Source of the DNA: Chromera velia | Taxonomy: Eukaryota > Sar > Chromeraceae | Direction: 5' to 3' | DNA: 29,392 nt | Assembly: GCA_018398765.1 (NCBI GenBank) | Contig: JAHBMJ010001498.1 | Span: forward strand, 1-29,392 | In this document: in pieces, positions 897 to 27,077 of the stretch | Position numbering within the stretch: position 1 is the first letter of the stretch | Layout of the letters: each line of letters starts with the position of its first letter | Notes under the pieces: generated by a model | What the model saw: only the letters and a program-made list of their open reading frames with translations | Database searches by the model: none | What the model was told of the DNA's origin: nothing | Translations under genes and position numbers: made by a program

Positions 897-3800
897 CTAA
901 ATTTCAAACGCGCTCGGTGGCAGTCCTGCCGAGGCTGTTTGAACTGTTCTATCAATCGCTCTGAGAAAATCTCTGGACAGTCTCTCTCCAGAGAAATACC
1001 CCGTTTGTTGCCTCGCAATCGTCAGAACGTCGTGGGCCTGCGCCCGAACCTTCGGGTCGAGTGCCAGCCTCACAGCCAACGCAGCGTATCTGGTGCCGTC
1101 TGACGACACAAGCTCCCCCAGCTGCATTCGTCTTAGCAGCGCTGCTGTGCAGCGTGAGACGGGGCTGGAGAGCTCGACAGTCAGCACAGGCACGCCCATG
1201 CCAATAGCGTCGTGTGCCTCTTGACACTGGTTGAATGGCCAGGTGTCGAGAAAGAGGTCCACCTCTCTGCACACACACAGAACACAAACCCTCGATCGTC
1301 ATTTGACATGCACATGGAGAACATCAATGCATCTAACTTGGGACAGCGAACTCTGTCTGGTACACTCGGACGGAAGCACGGGTGGAGGAGCCATTCAAGA
1401 GGACATGGGAGAGGCAATCTATGGACTGACGCAGGCACAAACAAACTAGGATAGAGAAAAAAAAAGCCAGGATCGGAACGAAGTGAGAGGAAGAGTGACA
1501 GAAGAGAGAAAGAAAGCCGAAAGAAAAAAAAAGGAAAAGGGAAAAAGAACAGAGAGAGACCTTGGATGGAATTCAAAGAACCAACAGTGAAGGGGGTGGA
1601 CGGGAGGAAAAGCGCGGGATGGAGCAGCGAGCAAGCGTTCCAGCGATGGAGCCGATCGAGGAGATTTGAAGACAGTGACGCGCTTGTGATTTCTCACTTC
1701 TTCCTTTTAATTTTTTTTTTGGTTTTCGTCCTTCTACGAACATCATGATTAAGTGACTGGAGTGACTTGCACCTCTAGAGAGGCTGACTCAGTGACTCGC
1801 TAGCTGACTGACTTACTGACGGCCGGATAAATTGGCTGATTGCTTGACTCACTTACTCATTCACTGACTGACTTGTATCTCGCCAGATGCTGGGGTCCCG
1901 AGGTAACTGGCGCTTTGAGAATGCGGGATGCGGGAACGTCAAGAGACGCAAAGGCATCCAGAATGTTTCGAGACGCTACAGGGTTGTAGTCACTCAACCA
2001 GAGGACTGAATTGGGGAGACGTTGGAGGACCTGCGCCCATACTTTGACAACGTCGGGTGTTATTCTGTTCGGAGGACCGAAAGCCGCAAGGACGATTGAG
2101 TCCTCTGTCGGTTCGGGAAGACCGAACGAGGCACGACGAGTGGCACGGTCTTCAGGAGAGACCGCTACTTGTGCGATCAATGCCCCGGAGGGAAAATACC
2201 CTGATTTCAATCGAATGATTTTCTCATCATACTCACGATCTAAATCCTCAGGAATGACTCCCCTGTCTGCAATAATGTAATCCAACAGAGGCGTTCCATA
2301 CCGTGAGGCTCCCGATGCTTTCCCTCCCCCCCCCTCCCCTTGTTGATCACTTCTTACTGCTCTGCCCATCGTAATCGGATAACGGAACCACCCGATTTGC
2401 ACAGGAGAAACCCGGGCAGCCAGAATGGCCGATCTTTGGGGTTCTCCCAGAAGCCCGTCAACATCTATCAGGACGTCAGGAGCGACACTGCGAATTTTCA
2501 AAACAGCATCAACGTCCACGAGAGACGAGACATCGTAAATCTCATCAAACTGCGACCGCATCGCAGGAGTCAAGGCGTCAAGCCCGATGTGATTCGGAGA
2601 GAAGTGGGGTCGCTCATACGAAAAGAGCAACAGCTCGGCATGGGTCCGATTGAAGTGAGAGAGAAAATCCCAAACAGAGACCCCAACACGGGATGAACGA
2701 ATGCTGCTGGAGAAGAAACCTATTCGTATCTTCCCCTTCCGATGCCCCCCTATTCCCCCCCCAGGTTGGAACGGCTGCTTCATACCCTCCGTCTGAAAGT
2801 TCAGGTACGGAGCGTACAAACGAGCACCCTTACTGAGACTTCGTGCAGATGCGCAGGAATTCAGGAGCACTGCAGGGTCAACCCTCTGCCCCTGCATCAT
2901 GCGTAAATAAATTTTGTGCATCACCCCTGACATATTCTCCCACGCCGCTGTTTCCATCATCATACGCTGCACGAGTTCCAGGTGCGGTCCTGTCGGTGGC
3001 CCTTGAGCAAGGGCGTTTTCTGCTGCTTTTTCGAGACGGCGGAAATGTCCCCGACTTCGAAAAAAAGACGCAGCGAAACTCAACACACGCGGACACCAAG
3101 GACGTTGACGCAAAGCAGACTCCACCAGTTGCAACACCTCTCCATCCCTTCCCTTTGCACTCAAAAGAATCGCAAGATTCAGCAATGCATCTGCATCGTT
3201 CGGATCCGCATCTAAGGCTCTTTCCATAATCTCAATACTGCTCTCTGGGAGGTTCAACTTCACCCGACGTAGACCTTCTGCCACCAAGACTTGGGACAGA
3301 GTTGGGAAATCCCCCGAAAAAAGAGTTTCTTCCTCTTCACTCTCGATGGGAATGTGCTGGTGATGTTGCCAGAGAAAAGCGTGCTGCTGCTGCCGCAACT
3401 GCTGCTGAGCAGTACCCTCCACATCTACCCCACTCAGGCACGCCGATTCCCGCGCACTCCCCAACACCCCCGTCAAAGTGCTGTAGTGAGCCATAGCACC
3501 AGCGATCTGAATGAAAGTGTCTGCACGCACCCATACATAAAACCAATTTGCGAAAGAATGTTGAATGGGAGCGGGATAGAAGAAGATAAAGAAGGCATGC
3601 GAACACGACACCGTCATGAGACGTCACCATGCAAACTGCTCTTCCTCCTCTCTCGAATGATTCACCGGAAGAGCGGCCCAGTCGGAAGGTTTGAAGGAGC
3701 AAGGCGACCCAGCCAAGCAAGCAAAGCCATCATGAAAGAGAACAGAGGGACGAAGCCGGCAGCCGCAGCAAATCCATGCACCGGTGCAGGCCGACGTCGA

Positions 3801-4498
3801 ACGGATGAACTATTCGTTCCTTCCCTCCCAAGCAGACGTTCGCAGGCACTCAGACGGACTCAGTGACAAGGCAGAGAAAGAAAGATACAAAACCACAGTC
3901 GACAGCTACTCAGAGAGAGTCAATCCACAGGGGCGCAGGAGCACAACTGTGCATGGAGACAGACACAGATCCCGAGCTGGAGACAGAAAGAGAGCGGAGG
4001 GAGACGGCAAGTAAAAACAGGGCGCGAAGAAAACCAGTTCGACGTTCCATCAGCTCCTGCCGGGCAGCATGGAGTCAAACTAGAAAGGCCAAAGCAGAGA
4101 CAGCTGACAACGCACAAACATGCACCTGACCACGGGCCTGCAGCGCAGCTGACAGACCGACCGACCGACCGACCGTTCAGATCCGAACCTCCAGTTGCCC
4201 CCTCCAGGATCAGAGATCCGACCTCAAAGGCGGTCAGAATTTGATAGTGCTGTTTCCTGAAAGCCTTTTCTGCTTCGCATCTTTTCTCGGGGGTGAGCAT
4301 TACCTTGATCCAGTTGAGATACTTTTCTTCGAACACATCCCCGGCAGGAAGCTCGGGCTCGTTCTGATCCCAGTAGGTGAACACAGCCTGGATTTCCGAC
4401 TTGACCGTCGGCAGAACAAAGCAGGCCAAAAAAGACAGAACAAGGAACCTCAATGCAAAGAATAAGGCTCCTTGTGCGTGCGGATCGGTCGCTCTCAT
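897..4498 (-). CDS. GT41 (OGT/SPY-family) glycosyltransferase-like protein with TPR region, active-site motifs degenerate
   Basis: The proposed exons are 4498-4189, 3520-1873 and 1266-897, giving 775 aa; phases close as 1-1 and 2-2. Exon 1 starts MRATDPHAQG, followed by a hydrophobic stretch and a possible cleavage after VKS, so it may be a signal peptide. Residues about 175-275 hold weak TPR repeats. The GT41 domain starts at GKIRIGFFSSS (about 366) and runs to the end. It includes DYIIAD, a stretch like ITPDVVKVWAQVLQRLPNSV, and after the last intron VDLFLDTWPF and AIGMGVPVLT. GT41 enzymes add GlcNAc or fucose to Ser/Thr of nucleocytoplasmic proteins. Here several donor-site residues are changed (see findings), so it may be inactive or use another donor. 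The exon-1 link is the weakest part: a donor 15 bases further on (exon end 4174) also fits, and translation could instead begin at the ATG 3494-3492 in exon 2. Upstream UTR exons are not excluded. Confidence 0.8.
1267..1872 (-). other. Intron 2 of the GT41-like gene
   Basis: The donor reads AA|GTCAGT and the acceptor TGTGTGTGTGCAG|A. Joining them restores a Lys codon. The joined stretch then aligns without a gap to the OGT segment just before the LDT/LDP motif. The intron contains A-rich tracts on the plus strand and no supported gene. Confidence 0.8.
3521..4188 (-). other. Probable intron 1 of the GT41-like gene
   Basis: This interval lies between the leader exon and the TPR exon. The acceptor TGCGTGCAG|AC and the donor GGAG|GTTCGG are both phase 1. 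The donor is weak; the alternative AACG|GTCGGT is also phase 1. No other gene is supported here. Confidence 0.5.
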
Positions 4499-8565: not shown

Positions 8566-9348
8566 CCTTCTGTCCGCAGGATAGGACTAGAGGAACCACA
8601 CTCAAAGAAACCTTGAGTATTCCTTCAAAATGCACAAGTGAGAAGGTTTCTCTCCGCTTGCAGCACTCGAGCAATCAGTGCTGGCACGATTTCATCATTC
8701 AGAGACGGCGATCTTTACGTGAAAGCAAGCAACAGACAATTTGAGCTCGCCTTTGACAGCGCCTCAACACGCAGTCGACCGGTCACCTAGACAAGTTTTC
8801 TACGGCTGAGGAGAGAGTGAATGCATTCTTATGCTGGTGAACCTGCAGCGGTGGAAACCCTTGCACGTTGCATGAAACCTGAGATTCTCTACTGCATGGG
8901 ACAAATGTGCTGAATGGCCCCGGAAAGTTTTTTGGAGTCCGAGCTAAATGCAAAAAAGCGAAAACCCTTTTCTGAGCAACAGATGATCATGCATGCACAG
9001 CAACAGTTGGTCGGTCTGGTCTGTTCAGAATTAAATGTTCAGAACGTCGATGAACCTCGTTGATTGACCTTGGAGTCCGCGTCGACTGCCCATGCACGCC
9101 TCTCCGATCCGCTGCAGCTGTTTGAGTCTGTCAGAGTCTCAGGGCCGATCGACAACTCTTTGACGTTTTCGTCAAGACCCACCATTCACCATTGATATAT
9201 CTTTCTTTTCAGGCTTTCCCGACCTGAATCGTTGCGCACGAAGGAGCGACAGCGAGGCCTGTGCAGTTCCCTGTACTGAAGTCCGCTTGTAGTTCTGCTC
9301 ATTTCCAGGACGGCAGCTGATTAGGCAGTCGTTGAGTGATCCAGAAAC
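8566..9348. promoter_or_regulatory. Divergent promoter region between the RING gene and IFT56
   Basis: The two genes are transcribed away from each other across 783 bases. No gene is seen in the spacer. It contains a TGCATGCA octamer at 8990-8997 and a moderately GC-rich stretch near 9070-9120. No clear TATA box close to either ATG could be assigned. Confidence 0.4.
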
Positions 9349-11375
9349 ATGAACCGTCCCGGATCTGCCCTGACAAGGGGCAAGCCGCGAAAACCCCCTC
9401 CCGTCCCTTCTTCCGGTGTCAACGCCGCCCGAAAGGCCTCTCCTGAAGCCAAAAAGCCAGAATTAGAAGACTTCCTCCGTGTTCAGGACTATGCAGGTGC
9501 CACCACTCTTCTGAATTTTGAGTTCAAGGCCAGAGAGGAGAGACAGAATGCCTCTCTCTGGATGGCCTACTGTTGCTACCACAACGGAGACTACAAGCGA
9601 GCCCTCGACATCTACGACGAATTGATGCAACGGCTTCCACCAGAAGCGCAGAACGAGATTCGCGTCTTCAGGGGTTGTTGTCTCTACGCCCTGTGTGAAT
9701 ACAAGGAGGCAGAGGAGGAGGCGTTGAAGGCAGGCAACAGCCCTCAAGCCTCCTGGACTGCCCTCCAGACGCGTCTCCTCTTCCATGTATACCACAAGAT
9801 GGGGGACGAGAAGAACGAATCTCTGTATGAGAAGAGACTCACCAACAGCATTGAAGACGAGCTCTGTCTAGCTGCGAACAAGTATCTGAAAAATCAATTC
9901 AACCTCGCAGCAGATATCTACAAGCGTAAGCTGTTGGCAGATCACTCGCTTCTCGCTTTGAACGTGTATCTTGCTCTGTGTTGGTACAAGCTTGACGGGT
10001 ACGATGTTGCCCTAGAGTTGCTGAACCAATACCTCCACTCTCCTATGTTTGAGGGAAAGTTGAAGGAATCCATCACAGCCATCAACCTGAAGGCTTGTTG
10101 TAACTACCAGCTGTATAACGGAAAGGCAGCAGAGATGGAGATACGGGATCTGCAGAACCTGTCAAACTCCTCCAACCTCGCCATGGAGCACGACCTGCTC
10201 AGACACAACACGGCCGTGTTCAAAAACGGAGAGAGTGCCCTGCAGGTAAGTGCGTGTGGTTATGAATGAATTCACGCGCTGCCAAAGCATCACCGCCTTT
10301 CTGAATTGGATCGTTCTTCCTCCTCTGCCTCTTCTTCTTCTTCTTCTTCTTCTTCTTCTTCTTCTTTTCTTCTTCTTCTTCTTCTTCTTCTTCTTCCTCG
10401 TCTTCTCTGTAATGATGTGGACATGTGTGCGCATGCCTGTCAGTTTGCGTGTGACAGATACATCTTCACACCCGACTTCTTTTGTTTTTTGTCCTCCTCC
10501 ATGCTCCCCTGCACCTTTCGCCCTCGCTTTTGGATCTACAGAATGACTGCATGTCCTCAGACCAAAAGGATGGATGATTCCGTTCTCTTTTCTCCTGCAA
10601 GATGAAAGAAGGGTCGTGTCTTCATTTGATATTACGGTGGTGGTGTTGTGATGGAAGAATGGAGAATAAGATCTCTTTCCAACCATCGATCTCAAGCCTG
10701 CAGCACCTCCCATGGCTAATCGCATTCTCTCACTCTCTCTCTTTGTTTTGTGTGTGTGTGTGTGTGTGTGTGTTTATGGGTGTGTGTGTGTGTATGGGTG
10801 TGTGTGTGTGTGTGTGTGTGTGTTTGTGTGTCTTCAGGTCTTCCCTCCCCTGATGGACCTCCTCCCAGAGGCCCGCTTGAACCTGTTGAACTACCACATG
10901 AGGAACCAGAACGTGAAGGAGGCCCACCAGCTGGTAAAGGATCTGGAGGCCGTCTCCTCCCGAGAGATCATTCTGAAGGCCGTCGTCTTCGCAGCGTTCG
11001 GACAGGCTCAGGACCCACCTTCGACTGACCACCTCGAGCTTGCACAAAGGCTCTTCCAGCTCGTGGGCGCACACCCCAACGAGTGTGACACCATTCCGGG
11101 AAGGCAGTGCATGGCCTCCTGCTTCTTTCTGCTGAAACAATTCGAGGAGGTCAGTCGGTGAAATGAAAGAAAAAGGTCCCGCATAGAAGAGAAGATCATC
11201 GCACTGTCTGTCTGTATGGCTTCAGCAGAGGGATATTCCAATAGAAAGACGCCCGTCCCTTTCCCGCAATCGATTGGATTGGCAGGCGGTGCGATTCCCT
11301 CTCCCTTTCTCTTTCTCTTTCGCTCGCTCTCTCTCTCCTCTCTCTCCTCTCTCTCTCTCTCCTCNNNNNNNNNNN

Positions 11376-11406
<31 letters not shown>

Positions 11407-12338
11407 ACTGAAGAACAATTAGGTCTTGTGGCCCTTATGTGCACTGATTTCTCCCTCCCTCCTGTGCAGGTTCTGGTGTATCTGAAGAGCATAAAGTCCT
11501 ACTTCCAGAGCGACGACGACTTCAACTGGAACTACGGGATTGCCTGTGCGAATGCGGGGGACTTCAGGGAGGGCAGAGATACTCTACTGCTGGTGCAGAA
11601 CGAACGGTAAGTCTGTCCTTCCTGACCGACCATGCATGGTTTCTTCCTTCGGCATTTGTTGCGGTGGTGGGATTTGGAGTTTTTGACTTGTGTAGAAAGA
11701 ATGAAGGGATTTCACCGTACTCTGTCTGATTCACCGGGTAAAGGGAGAGAAGCGCGGGAGAAATGAAGCAGCTACGTGACCAGGCAGGGGCAGAGAAACC
11801 TTCCAGACAAAGGGGATGAGTTTTGAGAAGGTCGCAAGCCCTTCTAGCAGTCGCGAAGAGATGAAGGTCAAAAAAGCAAGTGTCTTTCCGGGGTCGATGC
11901 ATTTATCTGTGCATTGATTTCTCCATTGGGCTTGCAGGTATCGCTCGGACTTTTGTTACATCTCCTGGCTCTGCCGAGCTTCGATCATGAGCAATGACCC
12001 TGCGAGTGCGTGGGAGATGTACAGCCAGATGGAAGTGAACGGGGATTCCTTCAATATCCTGCAGCTGATTGCGAACGACTGCTACCGAATGGGACAATTC
12101 TACTGGGCCTGCCGTGCGTATGACGTGCTGGAACGTTTGGAACCTGATCCAGACTTTCTGGAAGGGAAGCGGTGCTCTGCCATTGGGGTCTTCCAACAGT
12201 GTGTGGTGCAACAGATGGGGGGGGCAAGGGATAGCTGGTCGAGGGATGCTTCCCCTGACAGGCTCTTGGAGGTCGTGAAGATGCTGAGGTCCAGCGACCA
12301 CCTTCCTCAAGTAAGCAAGCTCCAGAGATTTTCGTTCA

Positions 12339-12387
<49 letters not shown>

Positions 12388-12914
12388 TGTGTATGTGTGT
12401 GTGCTTTCTCGCTTTCTTTCTTCTTTGTTTCGTGTATCTAGCTTCAGATGTCCAACTCAGTTGATTTCCCTTTTTTTTCTCATGCCCATGTTGTGAGGGG
12501 ACGAGAAGGTTCGCTCGTACGTACAGATGAAGTTTGTGGGGTCGACGTTTGCTCTTGCCACCTCAAGCGGTTTTTCTTCCAGGCCAGCGGCCAGGTGGAA
12601 AACGTGAGCAAATGGGCTGCGTCTCGAAGAGTGGGGACGAATAGAGAGACTCAAGAAAGTAGGAAGGGAAGTGGGAAAATAAGACCAGTCCGAGTAAACC
12701 TGTAGTCACGGCGTGTTCGGCCCCCAGCTCAGCAGATGAGTGGCTGTCAATCAGGAGAAATGCGCGAACCACGGTTGCTGAAATGAAAAGAGGGTATGCG
12801 TCGTGTGTCCTGTCTTCCTAATGCGTCGTGTGTTTGCTTAATCGCTTGCAGATTGACTACACCGTTGGCATCATGAAGCGATGGGCAAAGGAACATCGCA
12901 TCAAAATTGATTGA
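9349..12914 (+). CDS. IFT56: Intraflagellar transport protein 56 (TTC26/DYF-13), five exons
   Basis: The exons are 9349-10245, 10838-11149, 11470-11606, 11938-12310 and 12852-12914, giving 593 aa with phases 0, 0, 2, 0. The human protein is about 554 aa. Recognisable family stretches are [94 protein letters not shown] and the C-terminal [13 protein letters not shown]56 is a TPR protein of the IFT-B complex that moves cargo along cilia and flagella, so the organism builds a flagellum at some stage. The start ATG is the first in frame and is followed by a Pro/Lys-rich N-terminal tail before the TPR array. Introns 1, 2 and 4 carry long pyrimidine or TG microsatellites; the 11-base gap lies in intron 2, so no coding sequence is lost. 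No frameshift is seen. Confidence 0.96.
10328..10399 (+). repeat. (TTC)n pyrimidine tract in IFT56 intron 1
   Basis: This is a 72-base pure pyrimidine run, mainly TTC trinucleotides, about 80 bases after the exon 1 donor. Confidence 0.95.
10746..10836 (+). repeat. (TG)n microsatellite next to the IFT56 exon 2 acceptor
   Basis: TG repeats with TTTATGGG/TATGGG interruptions run into the acceptor TGTCTTCAG at 10837. TG-rich DNA therefore occupies the place of the polypyrimidine tract. Confidence 0.95.
11327..11405 (+). repeat. (TC)n-(TG)n compound microsatellite with assembly gap
   Basis: A CT/TCTC run is followed by 11 unknown bases (11365-11375) and a TG run, all within intron 2 of IFT56. 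The gap probably reflects a repeat that could not be assembled. Confidence 0.9.
11365..11375. other. Assembly gap (11 N)
   Basis: Eleven undetermined bases lie inside a microsatellite in IFT56 intron 2. Confidence 1.
12341..12402 (+). repeat. (CT)n-(GT)n compound microsatellite in IFT56 intron 4
   Basis: A CT run turns into a GT run about 35 bases after the exon 4 donor. It has the same pyrimidine/TG polarity as the repeats in introns 1 and 2. Confidence 0.95.
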
Positions 12915-22383: not shown

Positions 22384-25300
22384 AGACAGACAGACAGACA
22401 GACAGACACCCTCGCCAAACTACCATCATGATCTGAGGCACTCCGTGCGAATGGCCCGGAAAGCGATCAAAATTAACTCCATTTGTTTTGACCCTTATAC
22501 TCATGTTGTGTTAAGTGCCGCCTCAGCTCTATTTCCGGGACATGCATCTGCGTGCGTCAGATTTTTCAATCGGAGATTCAGCACGCTCGACGTACATACG
22601 CGCGCTCCCACCTCAACTCTTTGTAAGTGCCCCTCAGCTACGCTTTCCGGGCCACTTCCCTTCCAACACACCACTGAAGCTTCCCGGACACAGAAAACGA
22701 AAAGTTAGTTCAAGGACCAACAACAGAAAAAGAAGTCATCAGTCCCCCCTCGCCCCTCTTCGTCTAACCTACTCACTTGTCTCAGGGTTTTTCCAGACAA
22801 AATCAAATTTATAGTAGTGCCCCACGCGAGACTGCAGCCAGTCTCCCAGTCTCTCCTCAAACTCTTCCCGAGACCCCCACGTGGCCTCCCCGGACCTCCT
22901 CCTTTCCTCTAAAAACGCCCCCAGACCACACCGCACAGAGTTTTGGTACCTGCAACCAAAGAAGAAAGGGAGACACGTACACATACACACACACCTTCAG
23001 ACTGAAAGACGAGGAGACAGCGCACAAGGGAACGGCAGTCAATCGGAGGCATGTAGAGAGGAAAACCGGATAGAGAAAAAAAAAAGCCTTGCGTTGTGCA
23101 AGCATTCCAGCTGAAGCGACAAAAACAAAAAAAAGCCCGCTGCCTCCCTCCTTCCCAACCAACTGACTCCGCATCTTCCTGCACAGCCACCATCTGGAGC
23201 AGCGTGTCTTGAACATCCTTCTCCCACCACTCCGCACCCGGATCGAAAAAAACTGTCCCCACAAGGCCGGTGTCTTCAAATTTCTTGAAATATTTGAAGA
23301 AATCTCGCACAGGGCTGTCCAAATTGGACAGCTCCTGTGGCTGAAGCCCGTACCTCATGTTGGGCAGGTACGAAATTGCAACACCAAGATACAACAGCCA
23401 CAGTAAGATCACGACCACGATTCCCACGGGGTGCACAAGCCAACGAGCATACCAGTTGGTGATCATGCGGATCGACCAACCGGAGAAAGTACCGGGAGCA
23501 ACAGGGACAGCCGCTGCGGTTTCTTTCGACGGAACTTTCAGAAGGCCGAGCCTCTGGGATCGGACCTGGAGGGAGTCAGGTGACTTTTCGTTTTTCCTTC
23601 TCACGTGTGCCTTCTCACTAGCACAGGAGGAAGGGTGTGCCTCTGCACTCCCCCCCGGACCTTGCCTCCTCCCATTCACTCGGGCTTGTTCTCCAGGGCG
23701 GTGGGAAGAATCTGCAGGGACCCCTGCAGAAGAAGCGTGGTGTTCGTTTGATCTTGAGAAATGGCTCGATGCCTTTGCTTCTGTGTGGTAAGAGGAGAAA
23801 TGCATATCATCAGTGGGCCTCTCCCCCGTGCCTTCACCTTCCCCCTCTCCTTCTTCAACATGGGCAGGAGGGGAGAAAGGCGAATTGGAGTGCTGAAGAG
23901 GACTGAGGGGAGATGGTTCGTTGACCCCGTCCTCCTGCAGGTGAGTGGGGTGAGAAAGAGACAGACCCGGGGGGGTGCGGTCGTAGTGAGAGGATGTGAA
24001 GTGGAGACCCGATCCATCGCTCGGCTGCTTCGGGGACTGTGAAGCTTGAGCGTCTGTGTGATCTCCTTCCTCCACCTCTCCCTCTTCCGCCTCCTCAACC
24101 AAGTCTTCCCCTGGATCGGCATCCAGCAACAGAGGGGCGACGGTCGCGGCGGTGTTCATCCGTCTCGCATTCACTCGCCGTTGGGGTCTATGTAATTCGG
24201 ACTCTTCTGAACTGTGGAGGGGCATTGCGTCTGTCTCTCTGTCTACACCTGGAGGCGAAAGCGCTGTCCCCGCGAGTGACGGGTCGAGTCCGGAATTGGA
24301 ATGTGTGGTTGTATTCCTTTTCTCCCGGTCTCTCTGCACCTTGCTGCCTCTTTTCGGAGCGGTCATTGAGGATCCTCTGTGACTTGGCTTCCCTGAGCTG
24401 CCCGCTTCTGTTGATGAGTGGGAATCCGAAACGGTGGGGGGGGAATTGGAAAGGGCGGGTCGGAGTTTCAGGTAGGTCACATGAGACCATCTTCGTGGGT
24501 GGAGGGCCTGTTCAACTGCGAGTTGAAGGAAGACCTGTTGTTGGACAAGGAGATCCTCTGCCTCCTCTAACATCGCACGTGCGGTGTCTACCTTCGCTTG
24601 CGCACTCGCAGCCTCCTCCTCTACCCCCTGTGCAATCAGAAATTTCTTTCGCGTTTCAAACAAATCTAGGGCCGGGTCTTCAAGATCCCGTGCGGACTGG
24701 GATCGGAACGGGTTGGAGGTGAGCACCCTGATGAGACTGCGGATGTATCCTTTCTCTTCCAAGGCTTCTCGACGTGCGTCGAGACCCAAAAATGCCAAAA
24801 AAAAGGTCAGACACATCAAGTAACCAAACACAAGAGCGACAAGCATGAACAAACAGAAGTTTCGAATGGCAAACGAAGGAGAAGCCAGACCAAACGCAAG
24901 ACCCAAAACATCAGTTGCAGTCGTCAAAGAAATAGACATCCCCGCTTCTGCCACTGTCAAGCCAACTCGCTCTCTCGGCCGTCTGGGCAGCAGCCCTTCT
25001 TTCTGCCGCCGGACCGATCTCACATCTGCCCCCGTAAGATTATACAGCCCCAAGATGACAAAAAAGTCATCCACCCCAATTCCAAGAACAAGAAACGGCA
25101 CTGCGGTGTTGGCACTCGTGTGGGGGAGCCCGAAGAGGTAGAGGAGACCCGAGGCCCCCAGATATCCCAACACAGGTGCTAGAGTCCCCATCAACGTCGG
25201 CACAACTTTCCACTCAGAGACCCTCCTGGAGAATTGAACACCGACTGCGTACAGGCAGAGAATGACGGTGATCACCCCGTATCTTACGAGGTCACCTGTC

Positions 25301-27077
25301 GTGATCATGGTCGACTCCTCAAGGGCGTCGTCTGCAACACAACAGAGCACTTGAAAGTAGTGTGAAGAATTCAAATGCGTGCATGGACCCGGAACGATTC
25401 TCAAGTCGCTGAAGCACGTCACCAACGGAAGAGACGACGGGGCAAAAAAACTTAGATGGATAGAAGGCAGTCCGACAAGGTGCGTCTTCAGTTGACCTTT
25501 CGGCTAACCGCAGCTGCGACTGCACGGTAGCATCGATGATGTAAAAATGCTCACAAGACGGCGAGATGTGAAAGACCAATCCAAACATACATCCCCTTTT
25601 GACTCTTGACTGACCATAGCTACGACTGCTGAGGATTTTCACCTTGATCTCGGGGTTCGAGGCCCATTTGGGGTTCTGCTTCAGTTCTTCCTCCACTGCG
25701 GCTAGCCACCCCATCACCTCATCCGTCGTTGCGTTGCGATGGGGATGTGGCCCTGTGGGGTTTCTTCTCATATCTGATGGCGTCTCCGGATCTTGGGGAG
25801 ACGGCGTGAAGGGCATTCCGTCTCCCGCCTGTGTCCGGTAGAATAGGGCGACTCCCTTCGCAGATACGACACGCACATGCCGCAATTGATCCCCACCCTC
25901 CTGCTCTAACCTCTGTTGGAGCTGCTTGCAATCTTTACGCACGCCTACTTCCTCCGCCCCATCCACGAGTACGCACTTCGCTCCGGTGAACAAGGTAGGA
26001 ACGTCAACCAAACGCATCGCCCAAGGGCGAGGTGCAAATTGATGCGAAGGCCACCGAATAACAGGCCTGCCAAATCTACTCATGTACCCACGATCCCGCT
26101 GATCCAGGTCGTTCTGTGTTATTCTGTACAATTTTGGGAGTGCTGCGTACTCACAAACCCCATCACCCTGCATTCGACAGACATCACGAAACTGGACGCT
26201 CTTGCCCCCCTTTTTGGGGAAGCGCACTTTCAGACTTCTGATAGAGTCGTCAAGCGCATCTATCTCCTTCATTGCAGATGGACTCATTAGATTCACATCC
26301 CCTCCCTGCCCGTCGTCTCTGGGAAGAACAAGGACCGAGACCCAAAAATTCGGACCTCCGAAGGACTTCCGCATGCGCTGGATGTCCTGCACACACGCAC
26401 ATAGGTGGAGAAGAGGGGGGGGGGGGCAGTCATGAAACGGCGACACGAGGGCCAAAGCAAGCGCGGATGGGAAAAAGGGCGAGAGGACGAAACACAGAGG
26501 GAGGGACGGAGAGAGGGGGGGGAGAGAGGGAGGGAGGCGAAGAGAGGGGAGGAGGGGGGATCCAGTCCCAGAAGGACAGTGCATGTGCAGTCAAGACCAG
26601 GCATAAAGTGAGAGGACCAAGAGTGGGCAAGAGAGAAGGCGCTCAATTAACCGACCCTTGCCGTCTCGCTGTCTGTGGGGGCAAAGTCTTTTGTCCATTG
26701 ATACCGCATGGAGGCCCTCATGAGACCCAGGGAGAGGAGAGCACAGACAAGAAAAGAGACTCCAATGATCTGCAGATGCACGCAAGCAGGCAGGCAGTAA
26801 GTCAGTGGAAGGGAAGAGCACAGTTCTGTAATGGGACATTGAGAAAGGTGCAGTTCTGCACATCTTCTGCGCTGAAACGTCAAAAAGACAAACTCAAAAA
26901 GGCTGAAGGAAGACAGAAGAGGGTAAACAAACCCACCAGAAGGGGAAAGTCGTAGGCTGCATAGCCGACTCTCTTGAAGAACATGGAAGTGGAAGCATAC
27001 ATTCTCGCACGAGCGCTTCCAAAGCACCCAGCGAACCTCTTCCATCCCTTTCGACAGTCAGATTCCTTCCTGTCCAT
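20505..27077 (-). CDS. Patched/NPC1-like RND transporter with sterol-sensing domain, eight exons
   Basis: The exons are 27077-26937, 26769-26656, 26386-25615, 25331-23168, 22949-22777, 22298-22166, 21923-21679 and 21208-20505 (1481 aa); every junction closes in phase. The order is the family's: TM1 (about 44-64, FPLLIIGVSFLVCALLSLGL), a large luminal or extracellular loop (86-345), then TM2-6 as the sterol-sensing domain (about 355-525) with GIGVDDFF at 426-433. A hydrophilic loop follows (about 530-960), then TM7 near 976-998, a second loop, and TM8-12 with GFAVDYVAH at 1248-1256. The Asp in GIGVDD and GFAVD match the charged residues of RND proton relays, so transport activity is plausible. 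Patched-family members move sterols or related lipids. The start is uncertain: the ATG at 27077 has G at -3 and +4, but an acceptor-like ACATGCAG upstream could bring in another exon. Family level is firm; the exact subfamily is not. Confidence 0.88.
21185..21295 (-). repeat. 37-bp direct repeat duplicating the exon 8 splice acceptor
   Basis: Bases 21185-21221 are repeated exactly at 21259-21295, 74 bases apart. The copy at the lower coordinates contains the real acceptor (CTTTCAG) and the first coding bases of Patched exon 8. The other copy lies in the intron and carries the same acceptor and GFAVDYVA codons. Confidence 0.9.
22341..22408 (-). repeat. (CA)n-(CAGA)n microsatellite in a Patched intron
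   Basis: It lies 42 bases upstream, in sense orientation, of the exon 6 acceptor. On the sense strand it reads as TCTG and TG repeats. Confidence 0.95.

Follow-up and report, generated by a model that had tools for sequence, protein, structure and literature searches.

The stretch of DNA analysed here, hereafter the window, is a 29,392-nucleotide contig from Chromera velia (assembly GCA_018398765.1, contig JAHBMJ010001498.1). Its minus strand carries a gene that encodes a tetratricopeptide repeat (TPR) protein with the fold of glycosyltransferase family 41 (GT41). The residues that this protein has lost are concentrated in the donor pocket, where the catalytic Lys and a Thr of the phosphate loop are replaced by an Arg and a Glu. 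We consider it probable, though by no means certain, that the protein is a selected GT41 pseudoenzyme, a TPR-GT41 binding module without diphosphate-sugar transfer.

Gene model, fold and donor-site replacements

The gene structure was predicted from the sequence and joins exons at 4498-4189, 3520-1873 and 1266-897. Its features are given below, with residues numbered along a protein of 663 amino acids (aa) and alignment columns named after human OGT (hOGT).

4189..4498, minus strand: predicted exon 1, with the Met, a hydrophobic N-terminus MRATDPHAQGALFFALRFLVLSFLACFVLPTVKS that resembles a signal peptide or anchor, and then a stretch that looks helical
3521..4188, minus strand: predicted intron 1 (668 bp), donor G/GTTCGG, acceptor at 3520
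1873..3520, minus strand: exon 2, with the TPRs, the GT41 N-lobe and most of the C-lobe
2793..3299, minus strand: TPR/helical region, residues 66-234, from Pfam TPR matches and model helices
2361..2732, minus strand: GT41 N-lobe, residues 255-378
2703-2705, minus strand: S264, at the D554 column
2691-2693, minus strand: S268, at the H558 column
2382-2384, minus strand: R371, at the G654 column
2295..2363, minus strand: Gly-rich insert, residues 378-400, immediately after YPITMG in the alignment; predicted to be disordered (predicted local distance difference test, pLDDT, below 50)
2064..2066, minus strand: R477, codon AGA, replacing the catalytic Lys (hOGT K842, AtSPY K665)
1878..1889, minus strand: H536 and R539, retained equivalents of hOGT H901 and R904 (nucleoside side)
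1267..1872, minus strand: intron 2 (606 bp, GT-AG)
897..1266, minus strand: exon 3, with the remaining C-lobe and a stop codon ending at 897
1218..1229, minus strand: QCQE, residues 554-557, replacing the phosphate loop (GHTT in hOGT, AHTT in most of 80 bacterial GT41s)
1209..1211, minus strand: D560, retained equivalent of hOGT D925 (ribose)

Exons 2 and 3 yield 663 aa from the ATG at 3494. An earlier note, made from the DNA alone, had given a spliced protein of 775 aa, and this length is reproduced once exon 4498-4189 is joined to the acceptor at 3520. An alternative splice from 4304 to 3506 is also possible and gives 732 aa. When trained on exons 2 and 3, the coding score of exon 1 is positive in its own frame (0.129, versus -0.211 and -0.131 in the other two). 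The hydropathy of the exon 1 leader is 2.49, which is weak evidence alone, since a score of 2.6 occurs in 6 out of 200 window frames that start with ATG. No GT41-like reading frame was seen within intron 2 (1267..1872). A small intron in place of the Gly-rich insert seems less likely by eye, since the obvious donor and acceptor phases are mismatched.

The predicted protein matches PF13844 at 103.5 bits (cut-off 25). Its best match in the PDB is XcOGT (E 1.8e-36), with which it is colinear over residues 90-642, and it is also colinear with hOGT and AtSPY, best in the C-lobe. The predicted structure of exon 2, together with the alignment, gives a two-lobe GT-B fold after TPR helices. Both the predicted structure and the structure search covered exon 2, the search was used for register only, and the fold alignment was built from 56 of the 80 bacterial proteins described below. 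The GT41 fold is thus assigned with confidence, and the claim of the earlier note that the fold-defining parts are intact and colinear with OGT is confirmed. That note had also considered that the canonical residues might lie elsewhere in the protein. Instead, the replaced residues fall inside aligned blocks, as judged by the alignment at all sites and by the structure search for exon 2.

The donor site was compared with the best 80 of 318 confirmed bacterial GT41 loci from an alignment scan whose patterns, DLFLDT[WH]P and KG..R.GF, exclude all of the judged donor sites. On the catalytic and phosphate side, R477 stands where all 80 proteins have Lys (K842), E557 where all 80 have Thr (T922), Q556 where 78 have Thr (T921), and C555 where 68 have His and 12 Gly (H920). 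The SSDFxxH motif has lost both its His (S268; H in 74, Q in 6) and its Asp (S264; D in 74, E in 6), and the Gly of LGYPG, present in 80 of 80, has become R371. On the nucleoside side, H536 (H901 column; H in 66 and Y in 12 of 80), R539 (R904 column; R in 78 of 80) and D560 (D925 column; D in 66, E in 14) are kept. The window protein therefore lacks the catalytic Lys, the motif His and the HTT loop (CQE instead) of an active GT41 and possesses the nucleoside and ribose contacts.

These comparisons bear out the replacements described earlier (motif His to Ser, Lys to Arg, GHTT to QCQE and, as far as the Gly is concerned, LGYPGT-SG to FRYPITMG), as well as the retention of the D925 and H901 equivalents. 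The broader statement that nearly all donor-site residues are replaced holds for the catalytic and phosphate side and fails for the nucleoside side, where the equivalents of H901, R904 and D925 remain. The label of the motif His as human H498 is wrong. It corresponds to hOGT H558, with D554 as the motif Asp: in the PDB-chain match, query position 1 is chain residue 556 with numbering 10 ahead, which gives Asp 554 and His 558. PMC7949088 maps D554, H558 and K842 likewise.

A skew test was based on our own list of 20 donor-site positions, chosen from PMC9715652, PMC10027727, PMC4703063 and PMC4840301. It used columns that are at least 90% conserved in the 80 bacterial GT41s, left out columns filled in fewer than 76 of the 80 rows, and treats columns as independent. 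With the columns fixed by the scan removed, the window protein loses 7 of 8 donor-site columns versus 20 of 65 others (p 0.0032). The bias is also present when these columns are included (7/8 versus 21/74, p 0.0019) and at a 95% conservation threshold (4/5 versus 11/39, p 0.039). XcOGT, used as a control, shows no comparable bias, with losses at 2 of 8 donor-site and 14 of 65 other columns (p 1.0); it carries G at the D554 column and A at the G654 column. All eight donor-site columns are intact in 66 of the 80 bacterial proteins; 7 proteins have lost one and 7 have lost two. The losses of the window protein are thus concentrated in the donor pocket, and the fold appears to have been under selection because 45 of the 65 conserved columns outside the pocket are kept.

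It is very improbable that a splicing or assembly artefact hides true exons or bases carrying the canonical residues. The gene model is a prediction, and the +1 frame of exon 3 reads RHTT (window 1209-1220) near the loop, which would fit such an artefact. This HTT looks coincidental: it lies three residues downstream of the lost loop, a spacing that rules out a compensated frameshift behind QCQE, and the +1 frame loses GVPVLT. The replaced sites also sit inside colinear blocks. Furthermore, 10 of 13 replacement comparisons require two base changes (K842R, G654R and Y841N require one), which makes a sequencing error at every replaced site unlikely, and no other close copy of the gene was found among the GT41 genes detected in the genome.

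Relatives of the window protein

The source genome assembly (177.8 Mb, 4040 contigs, the window being contig C1496) contains at least four detected GT41 genes, including that of the window. One of them (C1083) is the SPINDLY (SPY) orthologue, matching AtSPY at E 1e-79 and carrying the His, Gly, Lys, Thr run and Glu. SPY orthology of the window protein, which matches AtSPY at E 2e-20, was rejected accordingly. The other two (C3766 and C1247) are divergent, keep the Lys and Thr-Thr, and lack R904; C3766, the one whose N-lobe was aligned, also keeps the motif His. All three retain Lys and Thr, and the window gene is the outlier. Reading frames near C3766 (L011) and C1247 (L013) have hydrophobic starts, and these genes possibly encode secretory GT41-like proteins.

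No close relative of the window protein was confirmed by single-protein scans of the genome and viral contigs or by an alignment scan of viral contigs. One tree places the window row with XcOGT (support 90/82) and another does not resolve its position; joining it with hOGT and SPY was not rejected (p-AU 0.19). The placement is thus unstable with respect to an origin by bacterial transfer. A C-lobe tree with both the K842 and T922 columns masked places it in a 20-row OGT-type group (support 100/99). In the tree that joins it to XcOGT, the window row has the longest of 85 end branches (3.58).

Bacterial OGT-type GT41s (XcOGT and proteobacterial relatives) share with the window protein the TPRs and two-lobe fold, the lack of an intervening domain and the LFLDT...G.PVLT core. 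The window protein differs from them in the replaced equivalents of H558, K842, T921, T922 and G654, the Gly-rich insert after YPITMG and the predicted N-terminal hydrophobic leader. SPY O-fucosyltransferases (AtSPY, TgSPY) likewise have a GT41 domain with TPRs, whereas in the window protein E752 is replaced by Asp, the R904 column (Ala731 in SPY) holds Arg, and equivalents of H495, K665, the Thr run and Y744 are missing. The catalytic domain of human and Drosophila OGT is colinear with that of the window protein, which keeps H901, R904 and D925 but has few TPRs, no intervening domain, and no motif His, catalytic Lys or HTT loop.

Arg/acid pairs and the Maf-linked bacterial group

In a sample of 150 genomes from the phylum to which genome G001 belongs, 66 match PF13844. 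A sample of 68 further unique domain hits (L102-L167, from the best matches and genomes G001-G004) has Lys at the K842 column in 60 of 62 filled rows, one Met (L160) and one Arg (L167). L167 lies in G003, which also carries the Paramagnetospirillum caucaseum locus L048. L167 was then searched against 120 genomes of its order; 74 matched at E 1e-15, with Lys-type GT41s accounting for many of these matches. The final C-lobe table holds 237 unique domains of 260 hits (L014-L257), after removal of the window row, duplicates and rows shorter than 100 residues; the search covered loci from outside the window's own genome, and those after L167 were chosen for their resemblance to it.

In this table the K842 column is Lys in 206 rows, Arg in 10 and another residue in 21. 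The T922 column of the Lys rows is never acidic (194 T, 5 S, 3 I, 2 G, 1 N, 1 A), and in the ten Arg rows it is Glu in 8 and Asp in 2. An acidic residue at T922 thus accompanies all ten Arg rows versus 3 of the 227 others (p 2e-15, with kinship ignored). The reverse pair, E with R, occurs in two rows that are 90% alike (L183, L187).

The ten Arg rows are 36-97% alike, and a single clade for them was not rejected (p-AU 0.24). The window C-lobe is 45% identical to its nearest Lys-type row versus 24-29% to the Arg rows. A common origin of the window and the ten Arg rows as one clade was rejected by the C-lobe tree with both columns masked (p-AU 0.0004), which means that Arg with an acidic partner arose independently at least twice.

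This recurrence bears on the idea that the gene is decaying, with constraint on the pocket recently lost and the rest to follow, which we judge improbable. The longest end branch, the disordered insert beside the donor loop and the 20 changed columns among 65 outside the pocket (14 in XcOGT) agree with decay. Against it stand 663 codons open across two exons, the concentration of the losses in the pocket with 45 of 65 other conserved columns kept, and the co-occurrence of Arg and Glu as in the bacterial rows.

Several other bacterial frames were seen along the way. L160 (G034:C25), with Met at the catalytic Lys and with the His, HTT loop and nucleoside residues intact, resembles a natural K842M mutant; by eye, the start of its reading frame looks transposase-like and unrelated to other GT41 TPRs. 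L015, which is 1576 aa long, apparently contains more than a single GT41 copy, and frames longer than 2000 aa with several GT41 matches occur (e.g., G109:C92, 3781 aa).

The Arg rows belong to a group of alphaproteobacterial TPR GT41-like proteins without the catalytic Lys (K-less) or the motif His (L168-L195, L264:8220-10142). In the alignment used for this comparison, the His is missing from all 10 Arg rows and from all 17 remaining K-less rows, and each of its 8 Lys rows has it; the N-lobes are distant and the register is approximate. In G003, the K-less gene directly follows a gene for a Maf flagellin glycosyltransferase, with FlaF a few genes further on, and Maf also adjoins the GT41-like gene in L258 and L260. 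Neighbourhoods were counted in 44 genomes at a distance of 8 kb, with 33 comparison places that were all confirmed to have Lys. Maf lies within this distance of 8/10 Arg rows, 17/17 other K-less rows and 0/33 Lys-type places, or 25/27 K-less versus 0/33 Lys-type (p 7e-15, with kinship ignored). The two misses are in G218 (a 5.8-kb contig) and G223. The corresponding counts for FlaF are 6/10, 11/17 and 3/33. These 27 rows come from 31 K-less rows; left out were L160 (another part of the family), L219 and L241 (genomes outside the Maf search), and L222 (G198:C105, F/D), which has Maf adjacent.

Like the window protein, members of the Maf-linked group combine TPRs with a GT41-like domain that has lost H558 and K842, and ten of them share its Arg at K842 with Glu or Asp at T922. 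They differ in having lost R904, which the window protein keeps, and in being encoded beside Maf and often FlaF. This group is a candidate pseudo-GT41 partner of Maf and may be related to Caulobacter FlmG, which joins TPRs to a GT-B domain, binds flagellins through its TPR part and functions in a genome that has no Maf orthologue (PMC7591256). We suggest that where transfer is carried out by Maf, its GT41 partner would have kept a binding job and lost catalysis.

Might the window protein instead be a working GT41 enzyme that uses a different donor or mechanism? R477 could serve for K842 while H536, R539 and D560 bind a uridine-type nucleotide, or the donor could have one phosphate, as CMP-sugars do. 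The intact fold, the retained nucleoside side and the donor binding of hOGT K842M fit this proposal, as does FlmG, which modifies flagellins in a pseudaminic acid-dependent manner (PMC7591256) and so gives an example of a TPR protein of the GT-B type working with another sugar. We nevertheless find it unlikely, given the joint loss of H558, K842, T921 and T922. A flagellar setting alone does not explain the losses: in genomes without a Maf match (G221, G252, G233, G177), all six GT41 domains located no more than 5 kb from FlaF retain D, H, K and T, which also argues against the K-less GT41s being simply active flagellar-locus enzymes. Residue loss instead accompanies a nearby second transferase, Maf. 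Three further domains also keep Lys, namely L230 (no FlaF listed on its contig), L252 (with FlaF at 8 kb) and L248 (a genome outside the Maf search). There was no GT41 match in four other FlaF regions (L270-L273).

Possible function and meaning for the GT41 family

A pseudoenzyme of the following kind would account for these observations. The TPRs, both Rossmann lobes and the residues that contact the nucleoside in OGT (H901, R904, D925) are retained, and those that grip the diphosphate and orient the reaction (H558, K842, T921, T922 and the donor-loop G654) are lost. Because the K842 and T922 positions line the diphosphate in working enzymes, R477 and E557 probably form a salt bridge that closes off the vacated phosphate site. 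UDP-sugar would then not be productively bound, and the likely job would be binding, of a partner protein via the TPRs and perhaps of a nucleotide, which the nucleoside-side residues may still read. The predicted leader suggests that the site of action is possibly the secretory pathway.

Mutants of characterized enzymes are consistent with a loss of transfer. The hOGT mutants H558F and K842M are reported to be inactive, yet they bind UDP-GlcNAc as well as the wild type, and D925A is proposed to lose binding (PMC4703063). K842M, K898A and H901A abrogate Nup62 glycosylation (PMC4840301). In AtSPY, K665 mutants and H495A/F are dead and T748A, S496A and Y744A strongly reduced (PMC9715652), and K665A, K689A, E752A and Y744A abolish activity in planta (PMC10027727). 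TgSPY K793A is without activity and H623A is reduced (PMC7949088). In TtOGT, for which no in vitro activity was detected, H920 is replaced by Cys and K898 by Glu (PMC4683255). In these papers, variation at H920 and K898 thus has precedent and natural loss of K842 has none. No natural catalytically stripped GT41 is described in the titles and abstract openings listed, which is weak evidence as the coverage was mostly without subscription papers. Rescue by Drosophila OGT D955A, which figures in the debate on non-catalytic OGT roles, concerns an engineered mutant (PMC4703063).

The earlier note had left a choice between a pseudoglycosyltransferase and an enzyme that uses a different donor. Its non-catalytic half is supported by the pocket-concentrated losses and by the inactive or reduced mutants at K842 and the H558/H495 equivalents. 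The term is ill-fitting, since the papers listed under it apply it to enzymes that make non-glycosidic bonds, such as ValL and VldE, and pseudoenzyme fits better.

Several points weigh against a pseudoenzyme. Arg can bind phosphate, and the losses need not stop donor binding because hOGT K842M and H558F bind UDP-GlcNAc. The missing His leaves chemistry possible, as the alpha-phosphate is thought to be the GT41 catalytic base (PMC9715652, PMC4703063, PMC10507012), and Gln occurs at this column in 6 of the 80 bacterial rows. The phosphate loop can also vary: AaNGT holds the pyrophosphate by Thr519-Asn520-Gly521 and Lys440, with contacts from Lys440, Thr437, Asn520 and the backbone (PMC10507012), and we infer that the Thr519-Asn520-Gly521 stretch corresponds to the HTT loop and Lys440 to K842. 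The proposed salt bridge would involve E557, a residue encoded beyond the exon whose fold was predicted. The ten Arg rows are related, so the independent Arg/acid events are few, and the long end branch also fits relaxed constraint. The bacterial group demonstrates that GT41 domains are retained after the same residue losses; it does not settle the role of the window protein.

Two other genes were noted in the window. A TPR-rich gene at 9340-12496 (plus strand), with Pfam ANAPC3/TPR matches for 9340-10269 and exons split by GT-rich simple repeats, is presumably IFT70/TTC30-like. A long reading frame at 22909-25503 (minus strand) matches Patched and sterol-sensing domains (PF02460, PF12349) and is probably part of a multi-exon gene.

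OGT and SPY, which regulate nuclear and cytosolic proteins, both belong to GT41. We raise only tentatively, as possible rather than likely, the broader idea that GT41 domains repeatedly became another module when the Lys-Thr clamp was swapped for Arg-Glu/Asp, once in a eukaryotic and possibly secretory TPR protein and again in a bacterial Maf partner. The emptied site would be locked for protein binding or accept a donor that lacks a diphosphate, for example a CMP-sugar; if true, the latter would be GT41 chemistry without description in the cited literature. A naturally stripped GT41 and a bacterial group encoded beside another transferase would provide natural test objects for the GT41 fold without catalysis. 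Such proteins may be recognized among “O-GlcNAc transferase” entries by a suggested sequence rule: Arg with Glu or Asp, and no motif His.
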